NCBI GenBank assembly: GCA_035620395.1
Contig: DASPGW010000019.1
Span: 1 to 40,907, forward strand
Source: Desulfuromonadales bacterium
Lineage (GTDB): Bacteria > Desulfobacterota > Desulfuromonadia > Desulfuromonadales > DASPGW01
Direction of reading: 5' to 3'
DNA length: 40,907 nt
A model generated the notes under the pieces. The model was not told the DNA's origin, ran no database searches, and saw only the letters and a list, made by a program, of their open reading frames with translations. The position numbers and the translations under genes are program-made. This document shows positions 30,459-35,015 of this stretch, piece after piece. Numbering within the stretch: position 1 is the stretch's first letter; the number at the start of each line of letters is the position of its first letter.

Positions 30459-30486
30459 TTGACGGGTCAAAAAATCGGGATAGAGT
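30459..30486 (+). promoter_or_regulatory. Promoter of the riboswitch-led cassette
   Basis: TTGACG (30459-30464), 16-base spacer, TAGAGT (30481-30486). The same arrangement (TTGAAT-N16-TAAAGT followed by GTGAA) recurs at 34908-34935. Confidence 0.55.
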
Positions 30487-30507
30487 GAATCCGTAATCGA
30501 ATAGTCG

Positions 30508-30612
30508 ATCCCGAAAAGCCAAACCTGCCGCGAGGCGGGGACGGAAAGCGATGGGTCCGCCGAAGCCGAGGCGAAGGCGGATGGCCGAGCTGCCGAAGGA
30601 TGTCACATCCTT
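30508..30612 (+). promoter_or_regulatory. GEMM-I (cyclic dinucleotide) riboswitch
   Basis: The aptamer is recognised by GCCAAACC, then a stem CCTGCC/GGCGGG capped by the GNRA loop GCGA (30524-30539), then GGACGGAAAGC and GATGGG, then a second stem (CCGCC/GGCGG) and the closing TGGCCGAGCTGCCGAA. These follow the GEMM-I consensus in order. ATCC (30508-30511) and GGAT (30598-30601) can close P1. The 3' P1 strand is also half of a perfect palindrome AAGGATGT-C-ACATCCTT (30596-30612), and its right arm TCCTT can pair with the Shine-Dalgarno AAGGAG at 30645-30650. Whether it senses c-di-GMP or cyclic AMP-GMP cannot be told by eye. Confidence 0.8.
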
Positions 30613-30658
30613 GAGAGGTGGTTCGGCCTTTAATTTTCCAGCGAAAGGAGTCCCATCC

Positions 30659-31312
30659 ATGAATTACACGGAACTGCTCAACCCACAGAACTCCGCCGTC
30701 GTCTTCATCGACTTCCAGCCGCAGATGGTCTTCGGTGTGGCTAACATCGACCGGCAGACCCTCTTCAACAACGTCCTGCTGCTGGCCAAGGCGGCCAAAA
30801 TCTTCAAGGTGCCGACTATTCTGACCACGGTGGAGTCGAAAGGCTTCTCCGGCAACATGTGGCCGCAGCTGCTCGACCTCTTCCCCGGCCAGGAGCCGAT
30901 CGAGCGCAGCTCCATGAACTCGTGGGAGGATGCGAAGTTCGTCGCCGCGGTGCAGGCCACCGGGCGCAAGAAGCTGGTCATGGCGGCCCTCTGGACCGAG
31001 GTCTGTCTGGCCTTCCCGGCCCTGGAGGCAATCAAGGCGGGCTATGAAGTCTATGCCGTCGAGGATGCCTCCGGCGGCACCACCGTCACCGCCCACAACG
31101 CCGCCATGCGCCGCGTCGAGCAGGCGGGCGCGGTGCCGATGACCGCCCTGCAGGTCCTCCTCGAGTACCAGCGCGACTGGGCCCGCAAGGAAACCTACGA
31201 CGCCGTGATCGAGGCGGTGAAGGAACACTGCGGCGCCTACGGCCAGGGAGTGGAGTACGCCTATACCATGGTGCACGGGGCGCCTCCCAGCCGCAAAGGC
31301 GCGGGCCGTTGA
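30659..31312 (+). CDS. Isochorismatase-like cysteine hydrolase (YcaC-type)
   Basis: A 217-residue cytoplasmic hydrolase of the isochorismatase superfamily. Asp18 in VFIDFQPQ and the catalytic Cys116 in LWTEVCLAFPAL are visible, the latter in the YcaC context TEVC; Arg83 seems to take the place where many relatives have Lys. YcaC-like enzymes have no agreed substrate. AAAGGAG lies 8 bases before the ATG, and this ribosome site may be sequestered by the riboswitch upstream. It heads a cassette with an ABM-domain protein (4 bases on) and an amidohydrolase. By context the cassette handles small amides or nitrogen compounds, which is inference. Confidence 0.88.
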   Translation: MNYTELLNPQNSAVVFIDFQPQMVFGVANIDRQTLFNNVLLLAKAAKIFKVPTILTTVESKGFSGNMWPQLLDLFPGQEPIERSSMNSWEDAKFVAAVQATGRKKLVMAALWTEVCLAFPALEAIKAGYEVYAVEDASGGTTVTAHNAAMRRVEQAGAVPMTALQVLLEYQRDWARKETYDAVIEAVKEHCGAYGQGVEYAYTMVHGAPPSRKGAGR

Positions 31313-31316
31313 GGAC

Positions 31317-31871
31317 ATGGAAGGTCCCGAACGGGAAGGCGGCCCGCTAACGGTCGTCGTCACTTGGCGGGTCCGGCTGGGATGCGAAGAGGCGTTCGAG
31401 GCGTGGCGCCGGGAGATTGCGGCCGCTGCCCTGGAATTCCCCGGCCACATGGGGATCGACGTGATTCGTCCGGGCGCCACCCCGGGCGAATATGTGGTCA
31501 TCTTCCGCTTCGATACCTACGAGCACCTGCGGGCATGGCAGGAGTCGGATATCCGCCGGAAGCTGCTGAAGAAGGCCGAGTCGTTTCGGGAGAGTGAACC
31601 GTCCTACCGCTTGGAAAGCGGTCTGGAGTTCTGGTTTGCGCCGCCGGGCGTGCCGGCCTCGCCGCCCCGCTGGAAGATGGCCCTGGTCACGGTCATCGGC
31701 GTCTGGCCGGCGAGCCTGCTGGTCCCCCGGCTGCTGCATCCTTTCACCGGCAACCTGCCTGCGCCCCTTAAGGCCCTGCTGATTGCCGTGGGCATCGTGA
31801 TTCTTCTCACCTGGGCGATCATGCCGCTGCTGGTGCGAATTCTTCGTCCCTGGCTGCATCGGCGCGGATAA
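31317..31871 (+). CDS. ABM-domain protein with two C-terminal membrane helices
   Basis: A 184-residue protein. Residues 10-105 form an antibiotic-biosynthesis-monooxygenase (dimeric alpha-beta barrel) domain: VVVTWRVRLGCEEAFEAWRREI and GEYVVIFRFDTYEHLRAWQESD. Two membrane helices follow (about 120-140 and 150-178), with the charged end RPWLHRRG. ABM domains bind or oxidise small hydrophobic molecules without a cofactor, and membrane-anchored versions of this layout occur but are uncharacterised. It is 4 bases downstream of the isochorismatase-like gene and thus cotranscribed. The ATG at 31317 has GAGG upstream inside the previous stop region. Confidence 0.82.
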   Translation: MEGPEREGGPLTVVVTWRVRLGCEEAFEAWRREIAAAALEFPGHMGIDVIRPGATPGEYVVIFRFDTYEHLRAWQESDIRRKLLKKAESFRESEPSYRLESGLEFWFAPPGVPASPPRWKMALVTVIGVWPASLLVPRLLHPFTGNLPAPLKALLIAVGIVILLTWAIMPLLVRILRPWLHRRG

Positions 31872-31882
31872 GGGAGAGCGAT

Positions 31883-33691
31883 ATGAAAGCACCCGAACTG
31901 ATACTGCATAATGGAGCGATTACCACCCTCGATGATTCGCATCCCCAAGTCTCGGCCGTTGCCATTACCGGCGGACGGATAACGGCCACCGGCGGAGAGG
32001 AGCTGCTCGCCGCGGCCGACGACAAGACGCAGCGGATCGATCTGAAGGGACGGCGGGTCATTCCGGGGCTCAACGACTCCCACATCCACGTGATCCGGGG
32101 AGGGCTCAACTTCAACATGGAGCTGCGCTGGGACGGAGTACCATCGCTGTCACTGGCGCTGGAGATGCTCCGCGAGCAGGCCCGACGCACGCCGCCGCCC
32201 CAGTGGGTGCGCGTGATCGGCGGCTGGACGGAATTCCAGTTTGCCGAGCGGCGGCTGCCGACCCTGGAGGAGATCAACGACGCCGCGCCCGACACGCCGG
32301 TGTTCGTCCTGCATCTGTACGACCGGGCACTGGTCAACGGGGCGGCGCTCCGGGCGCTCGGCTACGCGCGGGAGACCCCCGATCCCCCCGGCGGGGTGAT
32401 CGAGCGGGACAAGGCGGGGAATCCGACCGGGCTTCTCATCGCCAAGCCGAACGCCCTGATTCTCTACGCGAGTCTCGCCAAGGGGCCGAAGCTCGGTTTC
32501 GACGACCAGGTCAACTCGACCCGCCACTTCCTGCGCGAACTGAACCGGCTGGGGATCACCAGCTGCATCGACGCCGGCGGCGGTTTCCAGAACTATCCCG
32601 ACGACTACCGGGTCGTCGAGCAGTTGGAGGGAAGGGGTGAGCTGACCCTGCGGATCGCCTACAACCTCTTCACCCAGAGGCCGAAAGAGGAGTACGACGA
32701 CTTTGCCCGCTGGATCGGCATGACCGAACCGGGGAAGGGGAGTGACGTCTACAGGATGAACGGCGCCGGCGAGATGCTGGTCTTCTCCGCCGCCGACTTC
32801 GAGGACTTCCTGGAGCCGCGCCCCGACCTTCTGCCGGGGATGGAAGCGGAGCTGAAGAAGGTGGTCGGCCTGCTGGCGGCGAAGCGCTGGCCGTTCCGCC
32901 TGCACGCCACCTACAACGAATCGATCTCCCGCTTCCTCGACGTCTTCGAGGCGGTCGACCGGGAGATTCCGTTCCAGGGGCTGCGCTGGTTTTTCGACCA
33001 TGCCGAGACCATCTCGGAGAAAAGCATGGAGCGGGTGCGGCGCCTCGGCGGCGGGATTGCCATCCAGGACCGGATGGCGTTCCAGGGAGAATACTTCGTG
33101 GCCCGCTACGGGGCCGAGGCGGCCAGGCGGACCCCGCCCATCAGCCGGATGCTGGAGATGGGCATTCCGGTCGGCGCCGGGACGGACGCCACGCGGGTAT
33201 CGAGCTACAACCCCTGGGTCGCACTCTACTGGCTCGTGAGCGGCAGGACCGCGGGAGGTCTGCCGCTGTATGACGAGAAGAACCGCCTCGACCGAACCGC
33301 GGCGCTCAGGCTCTACACGGTCGGCAGCTCCTGGTTCTCCGGCGACGAGGGGAAAAAGGGGGGGATTGCGGCGGGGCAGCTTGCCGACCTGGCGGTGCTG
33401 TCGGCGGACTACTTCACCGTCCCCGAAGAGGAGATCAAGGGGATCGAGGCGGTGCTGACCGTCATGGGGGGGAAGATCGTCCATGGCAGCGGCGATTTTG
33501 GTCCCCTGGCGCCTCCACTGCCGCCGGTGAGTCCCGACTGGTCGCCGGTAGCCAGTTATGGCGGCTACCACCGTGGAAGTATCTCATCAGGCCTGCATCG
33601 TCAGGGATGCGCCTGCCACAGCCATCGGCTAGTCCGGTCGCCGAAAGAGTTCCGCTTCTGGGGTATCGGCTGCGACTGCTTCGCTTTCTGA
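31883..33691 (+). CDS. YtcJ-type amidohydrolase with cysteine-rich tail
   Basis: A 602-residue metal-dependent hydrolase of the amidohydrolase-3 family. The metal site begins with NDSHIHV (His67, His69), continues through LHATYNES and FDHAETIS, and ends with the Asp in GAGTDATRVSSYNPW. The C-terminal tail (about 555-602) is unusual: GCACHSH and a terminal GCDCFAF, rich in Cys and His. I believe such tails occur in relatives, so it is probably not a frameshift artefact. AGGGAG precedes the ATG at 31883. It is the third gene of the riboswitch-led cassette; its substrate is unknown. Confidence 0.88.
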   Translation: MKAPELILHNGAITTLDDSHPQVSAVAITGGRITATGGEELLAAADDKTQRIDLKGRRVIPGLNDSHIHVIRGGLNFNMELRWDGVPSLSLALEMLREQARRTPPPQWVRVIGGWTEFQFAERRLPTLEEINDAAPDTPVFVLHLYDRALVNGAALRALGYARETPDPPGGVIERDKAGNPTGLLIAKPNALILYASLAKGPKLGFDDQVNSTRHFLRELNRLGITSCIDAGGGFQNYPDDYRVVEQLEGRGELTLRIAYNLFTQRPKEEYDDFARWIGMTEPGKGSDVYRMNGAGEMLVFSAADFEDFLEPRPDLLPGMEAELKKVVGLLAAKRWPFRLHATYNESISRFLDVFEAVDREIPFQGLRWFFDHAETISEKSMERVRRLGGGIAIQDRMAFQGEYFVARYGAEAARRTPPISRMLEMGIPVGAGTDATRVSSYNPWVALYWLVSGRTAGGLPLYDEKNRLDRTAALRLYTVGSSWFSGDEGKKGGIAAGQLADLAVLSADYFTVPEEEIKGIEAVLTVMGGKIVHGSGDFGPLAPPLPPVSPDWSPVASYGGYHRGSISSGLHRQGCACHSHRLVRSPKEFRFWGIGCDCFAF

Positions 33692-34935: not shown

Positions 34936-34960
34936 GAAACGGGAAGCCTGCCGATTCCGA

Positions 34961-35000
34961 CCGAGCCGAACCTGCCGAAAGGCAGGGGCGGAAAGCGATG
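34961..35000 (+). promoter_or_regulatory. Truncated GEMM-I-like RNA (first half only)
   Basis: GCCGAACC, the stem CCTGCC/GGCAGG with loop GAAA (34971-34986), and GGCGGAAAGC then GATGGG match the first half of the full aptamer at 30508-30612 nearly base for base. The second stem and the closing GCCGNGCTGCCG block are missing: the sequence runs straight into a ribosome site (AAGGG) and the next start codon. It is either a decayed riboswitch or a leader retained for another reason. Confidence 0.6.
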
Positions 35001-35015
35001 GGAAGGGTGGTCATC

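Follow-up and report, generated by a model that had tools for sequence, protein, structure and literature searches.

The leader and its genes

The window, by which we mean the whole stretch of 40,907 nucleotides of Desulfuromonadales DNA that was analysed, carries on its forward strand a structured leader followed by three genes. The first gene encodes an isochorismatase-family (YcaC-like) hydrolase of 217 aa (30659-31312; PF00857, 92 bits), for which the nearest solved structures are YcaC 1yac and 4wgf, the second an ABM-domain protein of 184 aa with a hydrophobic C-terminus (31317-31871; PF03992, 38.2 bits) and the third an amidohydrolase (Amidohydro_3) of 602 aa (31883-33691; PF07969, 423.6 bits). 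An earlier note on this DNA had placed a GEMM-I aptamer before an isochorismatase-ABM-amidohydrolase cassette, and both parts of that description hold: the three Pfam families were matched, and a covariance search of the window returned an aptamer at 30509-30598 (+) with 60.9 bits for RF03167 (gathering threshold 59, E 4.1e-12) and 56.2 bits for RF01051 (gathering threshold 35). The Rfam matches place it in GEMM-I (c-di-GMP-I clan, Rfam CL00126), and it scores 86.4 bits with our own model, whose training set includes the window copy itself.

P2 and P3 of the aptamer fit the RF03167 and RF01051 models, with a C-G pair in P2 replacing the consensus G-C beside the ligand pocket. Alignment to the Rfam model puts a G at 30518 (the position-20 equivalent), an A at 30545 (the position-47 equivalent) and CC at 30593-30594, which provides C92; in Vc2 numbering the conserved pocket bases are thus G20, A47 and C92. 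The RF03167 score exceeds its cut-off by a mere 1.9 bits, and the consensus of that family, c-di-GMP-I-GGC, has a G at the position-47 equivalent where the window has an A. A literature search for the definition of the 'GGC' label in the RF03167 name returned none, and we infer that G47 is the defining base of the variant. As the window does not have it, we do not file the aptamer as c-di-GMP-I-GGC despite the score, and the RF03167 label may reflect other features of its sequence.

The 5′ strand of P1, AUCC at 30508-30511, is able to pair with GGAU at 30598-30601, which lies within the left arm of a palindrome, as the note had observed. The palindrome, AAGGATGTCACATCCTT, was likewise found exactly as described (a perfect AAGGATGT-C-ACATCCTT, 30596-30612), and an equally long perfect hairpin stem arose in that stretch in 37 of 5000 dinucleotide shuffles. 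Absent from that account were a 12-bp outer stem and a U tract. In folds of the leader GGCCGAGCUGCC (30583-30594), which is also the 3′ strand of aptamer P3/P1, pairs over 12 bp with GGUGGUUCGGCC (30617-30628), encloses a 7-bp tip and is directly followed by UUUAAUUUU (30629-30637), a U tract broken by two As. When the downstream stretch was shuffled 5000 times with its dinucleotides preserved, an outer stem of such length arose only once. A simple terminator scan reported no terminator at the leader, its loop limit of 3-8 excluding the 22-nt enclosed tip. Folds, alignment and shuffles all bear on the 3′ arm and the palindrome, the pairing of the 5′ arm and the U-rich tail are kept in relatives, and the palindrome is, as modelled, the tip of an intrinsic terminator incompatible with the aptamer. 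Upstream, a promoter (TTGACG-N16-TAGAGT, 30459-30486) agrees with the consensus at 9 of 12 positions, with 0.0 such matches expected in shuffles, and would start the leader RNA just 5′ of the aptamer.

A second aptamer of the window (34956-35002, +; RF01051, 36.2 bits) consists of a 5′ half only: our own R2 model matched it over positions 1-47 and then skipped 64 positions. It has no 3′ half or terminator, is preceded by a similar promoter (TTGAAT-N16-TAAAGT) and is fused to the start of a SRPBCC-like lipoprotein gene at about 35016. This element is probably a remnant and looks like a copy of the same module that has been cut short.

A tight subfamily in the Desulfuromonadales

We searched 136 genomes of the order with a pattern, aligned the matches and built a model of aptamer plus terminator, which led to a tight subfamily of 12 copies, all scoring above 100 bits and spread over 7 of the genomes, which belong to 7 families; the next match stands at 89 bits. 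Nine of the copies went into the model, which in part accounts for their high scores; the remaining three, two in G001 and one in G126, were picked up by the model. Because the 3′ arm lay outside the search pattern, the pairing of the outer stem does not depend on the way in which the copies were discovered; that of the tip does, the tip having been part of the pattern. Across the nine copies 97.2% of the outer-stem cells are paired, and at six pairs one partner varies without loss of pairing. Compensation on both sides of the terminator stem was absent among the nine aligned copies, because the aptamer dictates the 5′ arm, which hardly varies, and the two covariance-model controls that count such changes lend no support. 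In a few copies the outer stem is shorter or bulged; for two UBA6093 alpha/beta-hydrolase copies and other bulged ones the automated stem finder returned chance matches, and the folds show the bulged stem. The AUCC/GGAU P1, or a G-U equivalent, is kept in 9 of the 12 copies, and the tip motif GGAU-N-AUCC in most of them as well as in lower-scoring GEMM-I copies. A promoter pattern with the same 16-nt spacer (TTGA-N18-TA..GT) stands ahead of 10.

A protein search in named genomes found this leader, ahead of the same gene trio, in the MAG Pelobacter sp. UBA6093, and the cassette with its leader is present in changed form in G001. Among the loci searched, other isochorismatase homologues had the switch directly upstream only in UBA6093; a same-family search returned the window's own genome alone, and a plasmid search with the leader gave no match. 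One tight copy (119-128 bit class) precedes a DUF1579 gene in G135, which is probably the cultured bacterium Desulfuromonas soudanensis. For strain WTL of that species 16 GEMM elements have been predicted, counted there without a description of targets in the passages concerned (PMC4914508). With at least one carrier thus probably in culture, the subfamily is open to experiment.

At G000:C43 (L006, L007) two GEMM-I aptamers, spaced by about 280 nt, seem to be arranged in tandem. About 160 nt upstream of an isochorismatase-like gene of Oryzomonas japonica (L040) stands GGCCGGGCCGCCGAAGGACATACCCTTCGCGCTGCCCGGCCTTTCTTATT, which looks like the 3′ half of the switch with its terminator and has no recognisable 5′ half.

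Proposed direction of the switch and its probable ligand

We propose that the leader is very probably a transcriptional ON riboswitch, in which ligand prevents termination before the isochorismatase-ABM-amidohydrolase operon, a direction that we infer from the anatomy it shares with the pilM switch. Transcription would start about 20 nt upstream of the aptamer. In the absence of ligand, the newly made 3′ arm (30617-30628) would capture the P3/P1 3′ strand of the aptamer (30583-30594), the palindrome would close as the tip, and the polymerase would halt at the U tract (30629-30637). When a cyclic dinucleotide is bound, P1 and P3 would retain the 30583-30594 strand, with AUCC at 30508-30511 paired to GGAU at 30598-30601, so that no terminator would form and the operon would be transcribed. 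Relative to the best fold, the aptamer fold (without P1) is less stable by about 2.6 kcal/mol in a transcript ending at 30612 and by 10.5 kcal/mol in one ending at 30628, energies that exclude tertiary contacts and ligand. This rise once 30628 is out means that ligand would have to act before the 3′ arm emerges, and the modelled energy profile along the transcript is as expected of a kinetically controlled switch. Another aptamer of the same genome (L008) has the same overlap with its terminator, followed by eight Us.

The closest parallels come from Geobacter. The pilM GEMM-I leader of G. metallireducens can form either the aptamer or the terminator, C75, which pairs with the ligand, is tied up in the terminator, and transcription is switched ON by ligand (PMC9262584); in G. 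sulfurreducens loss of cGAMP leads to more termination near GEMM-I aptamers (PMC6456294). Like the pilM GEMM-Ib switch, the window leader uses the aptamer 3′ strand as the terminator 5′ arm, with the U tract next to it, has exclusive folds and would be turned ON by its ligand. The two differ in that the pilM switch senses cGAMP, has A20 and controls pilus genes, whereas the window has G20 and a hydrolase cassette, and in that the GGAU-N-AUCC tip of the window doubles as a P1 competitor. The pgcA (GSU1761) GEMM-Ib switch of G. sulfurreducens, an order-level relative, has a ligand-stabilised anti-terminator and is ON (PMC6456294), as we expect of the window, but it is cGAMP-selective and controls an extracellular cytochrome, which sets it apart from the window.

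For the ligand, c-di-GMP is the better guess over cGAMP, as predicted from G20. In Geobacter A20 confers cGAMP selectivity, and the A20G change makes a cGAMP aptamer into one for c-di-GMP (PMC6456294). In the window and in all 12 subfamily copies the equivalent of position 20 holds G, the c-di-GMP-type base, rather than the A20 of cGAMP aptamers. It is against this base that an unlikely alternative has to be weighed, namely that the same transcriptional ON switch senses cGAMP, as GEMM-Ib, or both dinucleotides. In its favour, A20 is present in 3 of the 11 complete aptamers of this genome, and among the 21 GGDEF matches, most of them canonical GD, there is one Hypr-like GS. This domain (L212, G000:C271:4886-5344) carries GHLAGS and GGDEF, the Hypr signature of cGAMP synthases, which suggests cGAMP synthesis in this organism; with A20 aptamers and a GS GGDEF beside the canonical GD, both signals may exist. 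The altered P2 next to the pocket also favours it: changes in lower P2 are reported to alter ligand selectivity (PMC9262584), and the C-G pair of the window could affect it. In four subfamily copies (G115, G105) the P2 pair beside the pocket is C with A, an unusual mismatch.

The earlier note had read the palindrome as a translational OFF switch, in which ligand binding would free its right arm, ACAUCCUU (30605-30612), to mask the Shine-Dalgarno AAGGAG, while the palindrome would expose the ribosome site when ligand is absent. We consider this highly improbable. P1 formation would indeed release the right arm, and complementarity to the Shine-Dalgarno (AAAGGAG, 30644-30650) exists, but it amounts to just UCCUU/AAGGA over 5 bp and is ordinary, as 12% of 10-mers sampled from the window match the purine-rich Shine-Dalgarno equally well. 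In folds constrained to contain the aptamer, the pair probabilities between right arm and Shine-Dalgarno add up to 0.16-0.25, spread over several pairs. The complementarity falls to 4 bp in UBA6093, and in 9 of the 12 copies, built on the same platform, 88-174 nt separate the start codon from the terminator; a distance of 30 nt or less occurs among the 12 only in the two isochorismatase leaders, the MsrA copy being the one in which our script did not locate it. A stable, conserved anti-Shine-Dalgarno pairing is therefore not what these leaders present, and such a switch would leave the conserved outer stem and U tract unaccounted for. The GGAU-N-AUCC motif is better explained as P1 competitor and terminator tip. 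Since the palindrome would be the apex of a terminator that consumes the aptamer, the translational-OFF model is not supported; the GEMM-I leader of the cassette and the sharing of sequence between P1 and palindrome survive from the earlier reading, and a terminator apex would take the place of the blocked ribosome site. The case shows how a palindrome adjoining an aptamer can be taken for a translation switch if the outer terminator stem is overlooked.

Least probable of all is a decayed aptamer ahead of a gene that has lost its regulation, for which the origin of the sequence from a MAG only and the truncation of the second element (34956-35002) might speak, but against which stand the full-length Rfam match with its key positions intact and the retention of the leader ahead of this gene trio in UBA6093, where P1, P3 and terminator drift yet stay paired.

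Target genes of the subfamily

The transcriptional ON switch that we favour stands before a varied set of genes. The isochorismatase-ABM-amidohydrolase cassette follows the copy of the window and one copy of UBA6093. In G001 one copy precedes an alpha/beta hydrolase, an isochorismatase-like protein and an amidohydrolase, and the other a second YcaC-like hydrolase with thioesterase-like and reductase-like proteins after it, the latter two being putative labels. Further copies of UBA6093 stand before an alpha/beta hydrolase, before the broken start of an alpha/beta hydrolase, after which comes a DJ-1/PfpI protein, and before an AHSA1 protein. An alpha/beta hydrolase with VOC-like and YcaC-like proteins follows the G105 copy, a VOC protein and a FAD-binding protein the two copies of G126, DUF1579 and then an alpha/beta hydrolase the G135 copy, and MsrA the G023 copy. 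Promoter, riboswitch and leader are nearly identical in two UBA6093 copies (L117 and L118; G115:C31 and G115:C10), one of which lies before the intact alpha/beta hydrolase and the other before the hydrolase start and DJ-1/PfpI gene, a likeness which suggests that the module was copied and later rearranged. Many of the 22 lower-scoring GEMM-I copies inspected lie ahead of proteins with an apparent signal peptide or lipoprotein signal, their targets including a CxxCH-rich cytochrome, a subtilisin-like protease and several lipoproteins; the contrast with the subfamily targets was judged by eye. In Geobacter relatives, GEMM-I is described as acting on genes for cytochromes, pili and polysaccharides (PMC6456294).

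The mechanism itself, that of the pilM-type GEMM-I ON switch, is already known, and it is the gene association that is apparently new. The earlier note knew of no cyclic-dinucleotide control of such a cassette, and our search of the literature, which took in few subscription papers, agrees with it in having found no report that connects a riboswitch with an isochorismatase; a GEMM-I link to this enzyme set, in several relatives, is apparently undescribed. More tentatively, and with some doubt on our part, we suggest that a portable promoter-aptamer-terminator module may have been copied before unrelated small-enzyme genes in scattered Desulfuromonadales (isochorismatase-like, amidohydrolase, alpha/beta hydrolase, VOC, AHSA1/SRPBCC, DUF1579, MsrA, DJ-1 and FAD), which would form a c-di-GMP-induced regulon of a kind unreported for GEMM-I. 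Such a regulon would be one of detoxification or chemical stress. If small hydrolases and redox-repair enzymes are under cyclic-dinucleotide control, the signal network of these bacteria would reach from surface life to small-molecule chemistry.
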